Source of the DNA: Thioalkalivibrio thiocyanodenitrificans ARhD 1
GTDB lineage: Bacteria; Pseudomonadota; Gammaproteobacteria; Ectothiorhodospirales; Ectothiorhodospiraceae
Length of the DNA: 64,000 nucleotides
Assembly: GCF_000378965.1 (NCBI RefSeq)
Contig: NZ_KB900536.1
Span: forward strand, 2,605,407-2,669,406
Direction: 5' to 3'
The notes below the pieces were generated by a model. It did no database searches, was not told where the DNA came from, and saw only the letters and a list, made by a program, of their open reading frames with translations. The position numbers and the translations under genes are program-made. Of this stretch, positions 2,283 through 47,766 are shown piece after piece (within the stretch, counting starts at the first letter, position 1; every line of letters begins with the position of its first letter).

Positions 2283-4042
2283 TACATCTCCTGCGGCGCG
2301 GACACGCCCAACAGCTCAAGGCCGTTGGCGACCACCTGGCGAACCGCCAGAATCAGGCTCAGGCGCGCGTCCCGGATTGCGGCGTCGTCCACCAGGAACT
2401 GGTGGGCGTTGTAATAGGTGTGGAAGTCGTTGGCCAGCTCGCGCAGGTAATTGGCCACCTGGTGCGGCTCCTCGGCCAGGGCCGCGGCCTCCACCACCTC
2501 CGGGTAGCGGGCCAGTGTTGCCAGCAGGGCCTGTTCGTGATCCTCGGTGAGCCGGGCAAGGTTGGCCTCGCCGTTTGCCGGATCATGGCGGTAGCCCTTC
2601 GCTTCCATCTGGCGCAGCACGCTGCACACGCGGGCGTGGGCGTACTGGATGTAGTACACGGGGTTGTCGGCGGACTGGGACCTGGCGAGATCCAGATCGA
2701 AATCCAGATGCTGTTCGCAGCGGCGCATCACATAGAAGAATCGGGCGGCGTCTTTGCCCACCTCGTTGCGAAGCTCCCGAAGGGTGACGAAGCTGCCCGA
2801 GCGCGTGGACATCTGCACCCGCTCCCCGCCCCGGTAGAGGATGGCGAACTGCACCAGCAGCACGTCCAGGCGTGACGCATCCTCACCCAGCGCCTTGAGC
2901 GCCGCCTTTACCCGGGGCACGTAGCCGTGATGGTCCGCGCCCCAGACGTCGACCACGCGCTCGTAGCCGCGCTCCAGCTTGTCCATGTGGTAGGCGATGT
3001 CCGAGGCGAAATACGTGGTCTGGCCGTTGTCCCGCTGCACCACGCGGTCCTTTTCGTCGCCGAAGTCGGTGGAGCGGAACCACAGGGCGCCGTCCTGCTC
3101 GTAGAGATGGCCGGCCTCGCGCAGCCGTTCCAGGGCGAGGTTCACCGAACCCTTCTCGGTGAGCGAGCGTTCCGAATACCAGGTGTCGTAGGTGACGCCG
3201 AAATCGGCCAGGTCGGCGCGGATGTCGTCCAGGATGACGTTGAGCCCCAGTTCGAAGACGAAGCGATAGTGATTGTCGCCGAGCAGTTCCTGCGCGCGGG
3301 CGATCATGGCGTCGATGTATGCCTCCTTGTCGCCACCGTCGGGTTCGTCCGGGGGCAGGTCGCCCAGGACCTCGTGGGCCTCGCGCTTGTAGTTGTCGCC
3401 GTGTTCCCGGTGCAGGGTGGCCGCGATGTCGTAGACATAGTCGCCGCGGTAGGCGTTGGCGGGAAACGGCAGCTCCACGCCGGCCAGTTCCAGGTACCGG
3501 AGCCATACGCTGGTGGCCAGGATATCCATCTGCCGGCCCGCGTCGTTGACGTAGTACTCCCGATGCACATCGAAGCCCACGGCTTCGAGCAGATCCGCCA
3601 CCGCCGCCCCGTACGCTGCACCGCGCCCGTGACCCACATGCAGGGGGCCGGTGGGGTTGGCCGAGACGAACTCCACCTGCACCCTGCGCCCGCGGCCGAG
3701 CTCGCTGCGCCCGTAGCGCCCGCCCTGTTCGCAAACGGTGGTGATCACGCCCAGACGCGCCCGCTCGCTCAGGAACAGATTGACGAAGCCGGGCCCGGCG
3801 ATCTCGGTGCGTGCGATCAGGCCCGACTCGGGCAGACGGGCGATGATGGCCTCGGCGACATCCCGGGGGCTGCGCCGCGCGGGTTTGGCGAGCTGCAGGG
3901 CCACGTTGGTGGCAAAGTCACCGTGGGCCTTGTCCCTGGTGCGGGTTACCTGCACGTCAGCGGTCGTGTCCGCCGGCAGGGTGCCGTCCTGTCGAAGTGC
4001 ATCGATGGCCTGTTGGATGAGTGCCTGGAGCTGATCTTTCAA
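2282..4042 (-). CDS. argS: Arginyl-tRNA synthetase
   Basis: This class I aminoacyl-tRNA synthetase charges tRNA-Arg. I place the start at TTG 4042, giving 586 residues beginning (M)[13 protein letters not shown], the usual ArgRS N-terminus and length. A longer in-frame opening reaches 4417, but its extra residues are translated from the heptamer repeat and are not credible. The HIGH-type motif reads HVGHGRGA in [15 protein letters not shown], the additional-domain signature is near the N-terminus, and the DALR anticodon-binding domain ends in LGVSAPQEM. The stop overlaps the SPOR gene start. A promoter must lie in or beyond the repeat-filled 4043-4413 gap, or transcription reads through from priA. 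Confidence 0.95.
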
Positions 4043-16795: not shown

Positions 16796-16804
16796 CGGGT
16801 GACC

Positions 16805-16954
16805 GTAGGATGGGTCAAGCGAAGCGGACCCATGCTGTGTGGTCAGTCGTAGGATGGGTCAAGCGAAGCGGACCCATGCTGTGTGGTCAGTCAAGGAGGC
16901 AGGAGTCGGGACGTGCGGGAGGGCCCGCATGGGCACGCTGCGCTTTGCCCATCC
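16805..16954. repeat. GGATGGGTCAAGCGAAGCGG palindrome family, tandem copies and IS-interrupted copy
   Basis: Two exact 44-base tandem units (16805-16848 and 16849-16892) each contain a GGGTC...GACCC palindrome. A divergent third copy (16928-16954, GGGCACGC...GCCCATCCT) is interrupted by the IS110 element, and its 3' end TACGG resumes after the element at 18214. More copies lie at 18232-18360, 18505-18595, 47574-47605 and 47683-47766. Confidence 0.85.
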
Positions 16955-16984
16955 TTGTATGTTGTCCGCGTCTGGTCTGATAGG

Positions 16985-17160
16985 GTTTTGGGCCGGGCAC
17001 CGGGGAGGCCGTCCCATCCTGGAGGCAGCGTTGGTCTGACCTCGTTCGTAGAGCGGCTCCCCGCCTCATTGCCGACTTCGAGGAGTATCCAAAAGCCAGC
17101 CAGGCTGGACTTTGCATCACAAGGTCGAAGCTGCAAGAAGTGCGAGGTCGGGGAACCGGT
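16985..17160 (+). ncRNA. Predicted bridge RNA of IS110 copy 1
   Basis: IS110-subgroup elements encode a bridge RNA in the 5' noncoding end whose first loop pairs with target DNA and second with donor DNA. All four expected guide segments are visible in order. CCCATCCT (17013-17020) is identical to the left target plus core. CGTAG (17047-17051) is complementary to CTACG of the right target. GGAGTATC (17082-17089) is identical to the right element end plus core C (18206-18213). ACAAG (17119-17123) is complementary to CTTGT at the left element end. The exact RNA ends and fold are not determined. Confidence 0.72.
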
Positions 17161-17201
17161 GTCTATTGTGACTCAACCAGCCCCCGAATGGGAAAGGACA
17201 G

Positions 17202-18197
17202 ATGATGACTGTGGTAGGTATCGATATCTCGGCCCAATCCTTCGACCTGGTCAGCCGCCGCGATGGGCGTAACGCCAAGGCGCAGCGCTTCGAACAGAGC
17301 CCCCAGGGCCATGCCCGTGCCATCAGCCACCTCAAGGGGCTCAAGCCTGAGTGCATCGTCATGGAGGCCACCGGGGTCTATTACCTGGACCTGGCGGTCG
17401 CTCTGCATGAGGCCGATTTGCCAGTGTGTGTGATCAACCCGCGCAGCTTTCGCCACTTTGCCGAGATCCATCTCACGGGCACCAAGACCGATGCCATCGA
17501 TGCCGCGCTGCTTGCCGAGTACGGCGAACGCATGACGCCCCGGCGCTGGACGCCGCCGCCGAAGCACTGCCTGGGGTTGCGCGATATTGGACGGCAAATC
17601 AATCGCTTGATACATGCCCGCACCCAGGCCAAGAACCGCCTGCACGCGCTCAGCGCCAAGACGAGCACGCCTGAGCTGCTCATCGAGGACGAGCAAGACG
17701 GCATCGCCCAGCTGGATCGGCGCATTGAACGACTCAAACAGGCAGCCCTGGAGTTGATCGCTCAGTCCGAGACACTCTCGAGCCACTTCGAGCACATAAG
17801 CACGGCCCGAGGCATGGGCCAAGCCAGCAGCGTGGCGGTGCTTGCCGAACTGTGTACCCTGCCGAGCGATCTCAAGGCCGCGCAGGTCAGCCGCCATGCC
17901 GGACTCGATGTACGGCTCACGCAGTCGGGGAGCAGTGTCAACAGCCCGGGACGCCTGAGTAAGGCCGGTAACGCCTATCTGAGGGCCGCGCTCTACATGC
18001 CCGCCATGGTGGCCATCCGCCATGAACCCAGGGCCAAGGCCTTCTATGAGGCGCTGGTGGCACGCGGGAAGAAAAAGATTCAGGCCCTGTGCGCCGTGAT
18101 GCGCAAGTACCTCACCGGATTGTGGGCCTGCATCAAAACTCGAACCCCCTTCGATGCCGCGGCGCTGTTCAGCGATCAACACCTCAACAAGGCTTGA
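17202..18197 (+). CDS. IS110-family transposase (DEDD recombinase)
   Basis: The 331-residue protein has an N-terminal RuvC-like DEDD domain: D8 in GIDISAQSFD, E55 in VMEATGVYY, and D97/D100 in TKTDAIDAALLAEY. A helical linker follows (residues about 125-195). The C-terminal transposase_20 domain has HAGLDVRLTQSG and the RLSKAGNAYLR motif, whose Ser253 is the expected catalytic serine. Length is normal and no lesion is seen. The protein encoded by the inverted copy at 46330-47325 is identical, and shared overlapping frames show the DNA is too, implying very recent transposition or gene conversion. Confidence 0.95.
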   Translation: MMTVVGIDISAQSFDLVSRRDGRNAKAQRFEQSPQGHARAISHLKGLKPECIVMEATGVYYLDLAVALHEADLPVCVINPRSFRHFAEIHLTGTKTDAIDAALLAEYGERMTPRRWTPPPKHCLGLRDIGRQINRLIHARTQAKNRLHALSAKTSTPELLIEDEQDGIAQLDRRIERLKQAALELIAQSETLSSHFEHISTARGMGQASSVAVLAELCTLPSDLKAAQVSRHAGLDVRLTQSGSSVNSPGRLSKAGNAYLRAALYMPAMVAIRHEPRAKAFYEALVARGKKKIQALCAVMRKYLTGLWACIKTRTPFDAAALFSDQHLNKA

Positions 18198-18213
18198 CCG
18201 GGAACGGAGTATC

Positions 18214-18597
18214 TACGGCTGCCCCCGCTCGGCATGGGTCCGCTGCGCTTGACCCATCCTACGGCTGCCCCCCGCTCGGCATGGGTCCGCTTCGCTTGAC
18301 CCATCCTACGGCTGCCCCCCCGCTCGGCATGGGTCCGCTTCGCTTGACCCATCCTACGGCTAGAGTCGACGACTCCGGATTTCAAGGGACCGGTGGCGTC
18401 AGAAGCAGGAATCCGTAGGTTGGGGTGAGCGGAGCGAACCCCAACGGGGGGTTTGACAGGGCTCGTCATGTTGGGGTTCGCTCCGCTCACCCCAACCTAC
18501 GGGGCTCGGCATGGGTCCGCTGCGCTTGACCCATCCTACGGCTGCCCTCCGCTCGGCATGGGTTCGTTGCGCTTGACCGATCCTACGGTTCACGGTC
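18214..18597. repeat. Cluster of two palindromic repeat families
   Basis: Three near-identical GCATGGGTCCGC...GACCCATCC units lie at about 18232-18263, 18280-18310 and 18328-18359, with two more at about 18509-18541 and 18557-18592. Between them an inverted pair of a different family, GTAGGTTGGGGTGAGCGG, spans 18415-18502. Several units end in CCCATCCTACGG, an intact copy of the IS110 target. No gene is present. Confidence 0.85.
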
Positions 18598-18609
18598 AGG
18601 CGTCACTCA

Positions 18610-20645
<2,036 letters not shown>

Positions 20646-46248: not shown

Positions 46249-46329
46249 TGGTGACGGGTGACGCCTGATGCCTTCCCCGTCACTTGTCACTGCTCACTGC
46301 CCTTCTTCCCGTAGATACTCCGTTCCCGG

Positions 46330-47325
46330 TCAAGCCTTGTTGAGGTGTTGATCGCTGAACAGCGCCGCGGCATCGAAGGGGGTTCGAGTTTTGATGCAGG
46401 CCCACAATCCGGTGAGGTACTTGCGCATCACGGCGCACAGGGCCTGAATCTTTTTCTTCCCGCGTGCCACCAGCGCCTCATAGAAGGCCTTGGCCCTGGG
46501 TTCATGGCGGATGGCCACCATGGCGGGCATGTAGAGCGCGGCCCTCAGATAGGCGTTACCGGCCTTACTCAGGCGTCCCGGGCTGTTGACACTGCTCCCC
46601 GACTGCGTGAGCCGTACATCGAGTCCGGCATGGCGGCTGACCTGCGCGGCCTTGAGATCGCTCGGCAGGGTACACAGTTCGGCAAGCACCGCCACGCTGC
46701 TGGCTTGGCCCATGCCTCGGGCCGTGCTTATGTGCTCGAAGTGGCTCGAGAGTGTCTCGGACTGAGCGATCAACTCCAGGGCTGCCTGTTTGAGTCGTTC
46801 AATGCGCCGATCCAGCTGGGCGATGCCGTCTTGCTCGTCCTCGATGAGCAGCTCAGGCGTGCTCGTCTTGGCGCTGAGCGCGTGCAGGCGGTTCTTGGCC
46901 TGGGTGCGGGCATGTATCAAGCGATTGATTTGCCGTCCAATATCGCGCAACCCCAGGCAGTGCTTCGGCGGCGGCGTCCAGCGCCGGGGCGTCATGCGTT
47001 CGCCGTACTCGGCAAGCAGCGCGGCATCGATGGCATCGGTCTTGGTGCCCGTGAGATGGATCTCGGCAAAGTGGCGAAAGCTGCGCGGGTTGATCACACA
47101 CACTGGCAAATCGGCCTCATGCAGAGCGACCGCCAGGTCCAGGTAATAGACCCCGGTGGCCTCCATGACGATGCACTCAGGCTTGAGCCCCTTGAGGTGG
47201 CTGATGGCACGGGCATGGCCCTGGGGGCTCTGTTCGAAGCGCTGCGCCTTGGCGTTACGCCCATCGCGGCGGCTGACCAGGTCGAAGGATTGGGCCGAGA
47301 TATCGATACCTACCACAGTCATCAT
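46330..47325 (-). CDS. IS110-family transposase, copy 2
   Basis: The 331-residue protein is identical to the one encoded at 17202-18197, with an intact DEDD set (D8, E55, D97/D100) and Ser253 motif. With no substitutions visible between copies, both should be functional if one is. The two copies could mediate inversion of the intervening 28 kb by homologous recombination. Confidence 0.95.
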   Translation of the reverse strand: MMTVVGIDISAQSFDLVSRRDGRNAKAQRFEQSPQGHARAISHLKGLKPECIVMEATGVYYLDLAVALHEADLPVCVINPRSFRHFAEIHLTGTKTDAIDAALLAEYGERMTPRRWTPPPKHCLGLRDIGRQINRLIHARTQAKNRLHALSAKTSTPELLIEDEQDGIAQLDRRIERLKQAALELIAQSETLSSHFEHISTARGMGQASSVAVLAELCTLPSDLKAAQVSRHAGLDVRLTQSGSSVNSPGRLSKAGNAYLRAALYMPAMVAIRHEPRAKAFYEALVARGKKKIQALCAVMRKYLTGLWACIKTRTPFDAAALFSDQHLNKA

Positions 47326-47366
47326 CTGTCCTTTCCCATTCGGGGGCTGGTTGAGTCACAATAGAC

Positions 47367-47542
47367 ACCGGTTCCCCGACCTCGCACTTCTTGCAGCTTC
47401 GACCTTGTGATGCAAAGTCCAGCCTGGCTGGCTTTTGGATACTCCTCGAAGTCGGCAATGAGGCGGGGAGCCGCTCTACGAACGAGGTCAGACCAACGCT
47501 GCCTCCAGGATGGGACGGCCTCCCCGGTGCCCGGCCCAAAAC
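47367..47542 (-). ncRNA. Predicted bridge RNA of IS110 copy 2
   Basis: This is the mirror of the segment in copy 1. Guide candidates fall at 47507-47514 (left target), 47476-47480 (right target), 47438-47445 (left donor) and 47404-47408 (right donor). The sequence is identical to copy 1, so both copies should have the same target preference. Confidence 0.7.
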
Positions 47543-47571
47543 CCTATCAGACCAGACGCGGACAACATACA

Positions 47572-47766
47572 AGGATGGGTCAAGCGAAGCGGACCCATGC
47601 GGAAGAGTCGGTGACCAGTGACGGGCTCAGATGCCACCCCTCCCGGCCCTCTCACCGCTTGCCGCCTCACGCCTGACTCCGCCGTCCGCATGGGTCCGCT
47701 GCGCTTGACCCATCCTACCGGAAGAAGCCGTCCGCATGGGTCCGCTGCGCTTGACCCATCCTACCG
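47572..47766. repeat. GGGTC...GACCC palindrome copies flanking IS110 copy 2
   Basis: The interrupted unit lies at 47574-47605, with two further units at about 47687-47716 and 47733-47762 (GCATGGGTCCGCTGCGCTTG type). The last two end in CATCCTACCGG, one base different from the IS110 target CATCCTACGG. Confidence 0.8.

Follow-up and report, generated by a model that had tools for sequence, protein, structure and literature searches.

Three copies of one IS110-group insertion sequence lie in the 3.75-Mb genome of Thioalkalivibrio thiocyanodenitrificans ARhD 1. Two of them, identical, are found in the window, by which we mean the whole 64-kb stretch of DNA that was analysed. How does the element find its site, and what part does its non-coding left end (LE) play in the choice? 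A preliminary description of the window proposed that the LE specifies a bridge RNA, with two guide segments for the host target and two for the ends of the element itself. The four guide words are confirmed as they were described, and the interpretation is supported by the comparisons below. We put the probability that the segment is the bridge (seeker) RNA of the element, as predicted, at about 95%. Bridge RNAs have been predicted in 85.7% of IS110 elements, so RNAs of this kind are already known (passages of PMC11208160), and the supplementary data of that paper, with entries in the thousands, may include the present element or its clade.

The element sequence is identical in copies 1, 2 and 3, which carry the same ORF, guides and ends at three different sites with different outer flanks. 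Each copy spans 1257 bp between two CT cores, and in all three the left junction reads CCCATC-CT/TGTATG and the right junction CGGAGTAT/CT-ACGG, the slash marking the element boundary. The recombinase matches PF01548 (92.6 bits) and PF02371 (63.6 bits), both above cut-off, as well as NF033542 (199.8 bits, cut-off 140), and has the DEDD RuvC-like domain and the C-terminal serine domain by which the IS110 family is recognised. Its residues D8, E55, D97, D100 and S242 correspond to D11, E60, D102, D105 and S241 of IS621 and are invariant in alignment A3; solved structures exist for the related recombinases of ISCro4 (9t56) and IS621 (8wt6). The layout is that of the IS110 group: a long LE (246 bp) with an RNA model match in it, a right end (RE) of only 15 bases from stop codon to core, and 3-bp subterminal inverted repeats (AAC and GTT, bracketing GGAGTATCTTGTAT), the group having 2-3 bp. 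AAC before the donor is kept in 15 of the 16 element types compared below (L022 has AAT) and GTT in all 16. The IS1111 group, in contrast, has its RNA in the RE and inverted repeats of 7-17 bp. One scan of viral contigs with a single recombinase protein, which reaches close relatives only, found no relative.

It could be argued that the guides are historical and that the element no longer moves, a view compatible with the identity of the segment as a bridge RNA. In favour of this view, intact copies number only three, and the one further trace of the element in the genome is a decayed right-end remnant (L007); three identical copies at three different sites, however, suggest recent movement, and we consider immobility unlikely. 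The remnant consists of 77 bp at C1:2736184 (L007 1501-1577). Its junction has decayed to CAACGG instead of CTACGG, and it is surrounded by GTAG repeats.

The four guide segments lie within 16985-17160 in the order first described (Table 1). The left target guide (LTG), CCCATCCT, equals the left target half plus core; the right target guide (RTG), CGTAG, is complementary to the right target; the left donor guide (LDG), GGAGTATC, equals the right element end; and ACAAG, at 17119 in the right donor guide (RDG), is complementary to the left element end. The last of these proved longer than was noted, since AU-(C)-ACAAG can be read against CTTGTAT with one base looped out. Across joined ends, the donor reads GGAGTAT-CT-TGTATGTT. 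The target had been deduced from two insertions and several empty sites in the window, where we count two copies and eight CCCATCCTAC sites.

Table 1. Features of the element, its predicted RNA and its target sites, in coordinates of the window
Feature	Position	Strand	Basis or remark
Element copy 1	16956-18212	+	sequence comparison
Second identical element copy	46315..47571	-	cores CT at 46313-46314 and 47572-47573
Non-coding left end (LE), copy 1	16956..17201	+	246 bp; identical in three copies; alignable in 15 element types
IS110 recombinase, 331 aa (P0001)	17202..18197	+	PF01548, PF02371, NF033542, IS621 alignment
Right element end GGAGTAT (left donor)	18206..18212	+	junctions
Left target half CCCATC + core CT (host DNA), copy 1	16948..16955	+	three-copy junctions vs empty sites
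Core CT + right target ACG (host DNA), copy 1	18213..18217	+	junctions
Left target guide (LTG) CCCATCCT	17013..17020	+	equals left target + core; covaries with flank in relatives
Right target guide (RTG) CGTAG	17047..17051	+	complementary to CTACG
Left donor guide (LDG) GGAGTATC	17082..17089	+	equals right element end + first core base
Right donor guide (RDG) AT-(C)-ACAAG	17116..17123	+	complementary to CTTGTAT, one base looped out; sequence reading
Bridge RNA core, copy 1 (predicted)	16994..17165	+	model R1, 191 bits; sequence among the 15 building R1
Bridge RNA core, copy 2 (predicted)	47362..47533	-	model R1, 191 bits
Predicted 5' RNA hairpin	16970..16998	+	minimum-energy fold; counterparts in relatives mixed vs shuffles
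Target-binding stem-loop (predicted)	17007..17058	+	consensus helices 2 and 3; converted from alignment columns
Donor-binding stem-loop (predicted)	17070..17135	+	consensus helices 5 and 6; converted from alignment columns
-35-like hexamer TTGACC	18194..18199	+	contains stop codon TGA (18195-18197)
-10-like hexamer TATGTT	16958..16963	+	invariant in 15 aligned left ends
GTAG-headed palindromic repeats	18227..18358	+	empty targets CCCATCCTAC at 18253, 18300, 18348; another at 18530

Order and polarity follow the IS621 bridge RNA, as had been claimed; we checked this on an IS621 copy and in passages of PMC11208160 and PMC11208158. In IS621 of E. coli the RNA is likewise encoded in the LE, with the order LTG, RTG, LDG, RDG and a CT core, and IS621 also has a discontinuous RDG (A157-U158/C162-G165; PMC11208158), a junction promoter and the catalytic D, E, D, D and S (passages of PMC11208160 and PMC11208158). 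The IS621 copy L117 carries LTG ATCGGGCCT, RTG GCGTAG, LDG ACAGTATC and an RDG ending in GCAAG, in the same order. The natural target of IS621, ATCAGGCCTAC in REP elements, also ends in the complement of GTAG (passages of PMC11208160 and PMC11208158). The guides themselves differ between the two elements, and the present one, with a recombinase only 33% identical to that of IS621, lets the bridge-RNA rule be tested independently on a natural case. ISEc21 is comparable in that an upstream non-coding region gives a target-matching RNA, with the top-strand match 3' of the bottom-strand match as here; unlike the present element, it is directed to a conserved stretch of certain IS3-family members, and its seekRNA is described as 74 nt long (passages of PMC11187229).

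Conservation of structure was assessed on 15 left ends (alignment A1). Their consensus fold has 44 pairs, 17 of them with changes on both sides; 95.6% of 660 cells are paired versus 89.1% in shuffles, and covariation is 0.254 versus 0.129 in shuffles and 0.027-0.068 when slid. The unpaired loop sides, converted from alignment columns 78-88, 112-123, 150-160 and 192-203, fall in copy 1 at 17011-17021, 17044-17054, 17081-17091 and 17114-17125, and each holds one guide. The conserved two-loop fold that the preliminary description had named as a check is found across homologous ends, with compensatory changes and with the guides on the loop sides. The fold differs from that of IS621 in having a common outer helix that closes both loops. 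Rfam models gave 10 matches over 16900-18700, none reaching the gathering score; those to miRNA families fall across the inverted repeat at 18413-18502 and are probably chance hits.

Energy gives another picture than covariation. The minimum-energy fold of the single sequence differs from the two-loop fold (z -0.91; 40 of 200 shuffles do equally well), and the two-loop energy is poorer than the minimum in all 15 types (-46.9 vs -72.9 for the present element). As for the predicted 5' hairpin, whose counterpart in IS621-type bridge RNAs precedes the target loop, five of the 15 types, the present element not among them, fold better than 95% of 200 mononucleotide shuffles. We also observed that GACCTCG (17038-17044) and CGAGGTC (17143-17149) pair in 104 of 105 cells over the 15 types, in a helix that excludes the two-loop fold and that shows no pair with changes on both sides and no covariation; it is possibly a switch or a folding trap.

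The segment could instead be a structured RNA or DNA that is conserved for another role, such as a 5' leader controlling translation of the recombinase or a binding site for it, with homology-dependent insertion accounting for the target match. This would fit its position directly upstream of the start codon, the different most stable single-sequence fold and the conserved alternative helix. We nevertheless regard such a role as very improbable. Homology-dependent insertion gives no reason for a sense LTG and an antisense RTG on opposite loop sides, and the LTG is variable between conserved stretches and tracks the target. The RNA of IS621, moreover, is necessary for recombination in vitro (passages of PMC11208160).

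That the LTG tracks the target was established in 16 element types, namely the present element and 15 relatives whose recombinases are about 61-70% identical to its own. The relatives were gathered by protein and retained if their best tblastn piece showed at least 55% identity, and each type offers a left end and both flanks, with one flank per element. The LTG was located by conserved neighbouring bases and the element ends by CTTGTATGTT and GAGTAT, never by the flank; the LTG-placing pattern was written after the relatives' sequences had been read and contains no flank base. Of the 24 rows with flanks, L004, L006, L008 and further copies from genome G281 were left out; L008, a second Alcanivorax copy with an LTG match of 4/6, was omitted in favour of L009 (5/6). 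L019, a near-copy of L011, is counted among the 16 types and is absent from A1, which has 15 rows. Right-end pieces that lack an LE offer no guides to compare.

Compared with the six bases of flank that precede the core, the LTG is identical at 89 of 96 positions, against a mean of 55.6 (sd 5.4, maximum 81) in 100,000 flank permutations, and sliding it by 1-6 bases lowers the identity from 93% to 29-39%. When each distinct LTG is represented by a single element, 57 of 60 positions match (permutation maximum 55). The relative L070, for example, has LTG CCCGACCT and target CCCGAC-CT-AC. Insertion of relatives at targets that do not co-vary with the guides had been named as the outcome contrary to a bridge RNA; relatives at other targets instead carry changed, matching LTGs. 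On the recombinase tree, in which the places of L020 and L022 are unsure (translations partly frame-broken), the 10 different six-base LTGs call for at least 10 changes, nine being the least possible, and the agreement between LTG and flank is therefore not one shared inheritance. Some LTGs are one base apart (TCGCTC/CCGCTC/ACGCTC; CCCAAC/TCCAAC), so that true retargetings are fewer, about six by such grouping. The guide positions, fixed by conserved bases, thus predict the flanks of relatives, and the comparison supplies recombinases and guides whose targets are known.

For the other guides there is little variation to follow. The RTG agrees with the right flank at 41 of 45 positions in 15 of the 16 types, a value reached by 1137 of 100,000 permutations; L018 is missing from this count because its contig ends after CTAT. 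The covariation is weak because the RTG hardly varies, ending in GTAG in 15 of 16 types. L018 is the exception, with ATAG and a flank that begins with CTAT. CTAC opens the right flank in 14 of the 16 types, the others being L012 (CTGC) and L018. The donor guides are nearly invariant, and for the sole variable LDG column 2306 of 20,000 permutations are as good.

Were the words found by chance, in a flexible search of GC-rich DNA near palindromic repeats? The reader was free in the choice of word lengths, for which our shuffle counts carry no correction, and the two five-base words are indeed common: when the 176-nt region was put through 200,000 dinucleotide shuffles, 13,932 and 28,904 of the products contained them. 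The first 8-mer, however, occurs in 580 of the 200,000 and the second in 195, both together in none, and the four words in order in none. Both 8-mers are likewise absent together from the 11,606 overlapping 176-nt windows taken on both strands from the rest of the 64 kb, with both copies masked. Since the guide positions also carry over to relatives with other targets, a test independent of word length, chance is scarcely credible.

How a bridge RNA would direct the element can be outlined by analogy with IS621. Excision would join RE and LE around the CT core and set TTGACC 17 bases before TATGTT, an arrangement that by sequence resembles a sigma-70 promoter and may act as one in the circle. 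The two halves are apart in the integrated form, so production of the RNA would be limited to the circle, as is described for IS621. The transcript would fold into a target loop and a donor loop, as covariation of the fold supports, and its LTG would pair with the target, as covariation in relatives supports. The recombinase, with its IS621-like DEDD and serine residues, would then exchange strands at CT, so that the element would come to lie at the GTAG foot of a palindromic repeat in the host.

The putative -35 hexamer overlaps the end of the recombinase gene. In all 16 types the stop codon TGA falls within a TTGA hexamer, which is placed 17 bases before TATGTT in 15 of them and 18 in L072. 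Among eight right-end pieces (sister copies left out, LE assumed), four have the same overlap, three (L031, L034 and L093) retain a TTG-hexamer at 17 with the stop codon elsewhere, and L027 is without a hexamer at 17. A hexamer is thus kept in pieces whose stop lies elsewhere, which suggests that conservation acts on the promoter and not on the stop. In the IS621 copy L117 the distance from stop to core is 105 bases, versus 15 here with the stop inside the -35. We offer the stop codon within a candidate -35 as an observation, not as an established feature. In one of the seven G281 copies (L096, L105; C2:182380-183363) the outer part of the left end is missing, and with it the -10 and the donor half; this copy should therefore be immobile.

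Genome-wide, the empty site GACCCATCCTACGG was counted 13 times and its control, the pattern read backwards, not once; CCCATCCTAC occurs 75 times (control 1), and 8 of the 75 are inside the window. As read from the sequence, these sites sit in palindromic repeats with GTAG at the outer end, which occur singly, in tandem (44-bp and 47/48-bp units) or as inverted pairs. Copy 1 has short tandem arrays of the target repeat on both sides, at 16804-16891 (two 44-nt copies) and 18227-18358 (47-48-nt units). The target repeats belong to the class described as GTAG repeats, stem-loops with GTAG at one end that are known from two Thioalkalivibrio strains (passages of PMC3733652). That paper ties the repeats to RAYT transposases, and its main text does not mention IS110. 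Here, nine Y1_Tnp matches in the genome gave eight loci, and none of the eight has GTAGGATGGG or CCCATCCTAC in flanks of about 1.5 kb; a RAYT gene beside the target repeat was accordingly rejected. A fixed insertion point in palindromic repeats is also known for ISPa11, ISPpu9 and ISPpu10; the passages of that 2006 genome study do not invoke a guide RNA and suggest a protein motif for some elements of other families (PMC1525189).

A second GTAG-headed repeat family is present in the window at 18413-18502, as a perfect 33-bp inverted repeat, CCGTAGGTTGGGG..CCCCAACCTACGG. Its foot, CCCAACCTAC, is the target type of the relative L013 and nearly that of L018.

Relatives, too, are commonly found beside a stem. 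A left flank with a perfect stem of at least six bases ending at most four bases from the core was found in 10 of 14 testable types (L016 and L020 were left out of the 16 as their flanks are too short); L009, L010, L011 and L012 are without one. For the 10 positive types, 0 to 31 of 500 shuffled flanks were equally good.

Host repeats were compared with the guides of resident elements in six genomes, of which the present one is G000. For CCCGACCTAC, where the G281 element sits, the complete G281 genome gives 532 occurrences (control 61), and G000, G019, G175, G296 and G343 give 9, 9, 1, 3 and 14. TCCGCCCTAC, at which the G019 element is inserted, was counted 58 times in 400 kb of G019 versus 0-5 times in the five other samples, and CCCATCCTAC 6 times in 400 kb of G000 versus 0-1 elsewhere. 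TCGCTCCTAC, taken from the guide of the G175, G296 and G343 elements, is absent from every sample, to which these hosts contributed 295, 400 and 48 kb; in their sequence the shorter CGCTCCTAC is no commoner than its control (3/7, 4/11 and 2/4). Resident elements are tuned to the host's repeats in three of six tested hosts; the other three, partly sampled, showed no enrichment.

These results suggest a natural way of changing target, in which the guide half that reads the GTAG head stays and the half that reads the repeat stem changes. We tentatively propose that in this clade the RTG half and core remain complementary to GTAG, a head common to many palindromic repeats, while the LTG half is rewritten to the stem of the host's common repeat, and we rate the idea at somewhat under an even chance. 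In its favour, the nearly constant RTG ending stands against the 10 different LTGs. Against it, L018 (ATAG) and L074 (GTTAG) depart from the rule, 4 of 14 testable flanks lack the stem, and half of the tested hosts lack enrichment. The split between a fixed anti-GTAG RTG and a variable LTG was not found in the literature searched, mostly outside subscription journals and supplements, and is offered as an observation that is not established. If the proposal is correct, changing six to eight bases on one loop side would turn the element onto the repeat family of a new host, and the clade would consist of RNA-guided parasites of GTAG repeats.

Beyond the clade, the reach of the RNA model is short. 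In the genome of the present element R1 finds only the three IS copies and no orphan bridge RNA without recombinase; as 150 of 1774 first-look candidates were scored, weak ones could be missed. Applied to 39 more distant IS110 loci, none used in building it, R1 found three (L108, L073 and L074, with 54, 41 and 35% protein identity) and missed 36, including the IS621 copy and its Enterobacter relative. In all three the match lies just upstream of the recombinase. Judged by eye, their RTGs match the right flanks over 6, 7 and 6 bases, and their LTGs match at only 4/6. L074 (bridge RNA 2496-2653, minus strand) has a different RTG, CGTTAG, with flank CTAACG, and a donor change on both sides, GCATC in LDG and RE (by eye). 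The right flank of L074 also resembles, to our eye, an integron attC site. L008 and L073, whose recombinases are 70% and 41% identical to that of the present element, have similar LTGs (CTGAGCCT and TTGAGCCT) and occupy sites that closely resemble each other (GAGCCTACA.GGACGTATTCACGGCGT), apparently one repeat that is present in different genomes.
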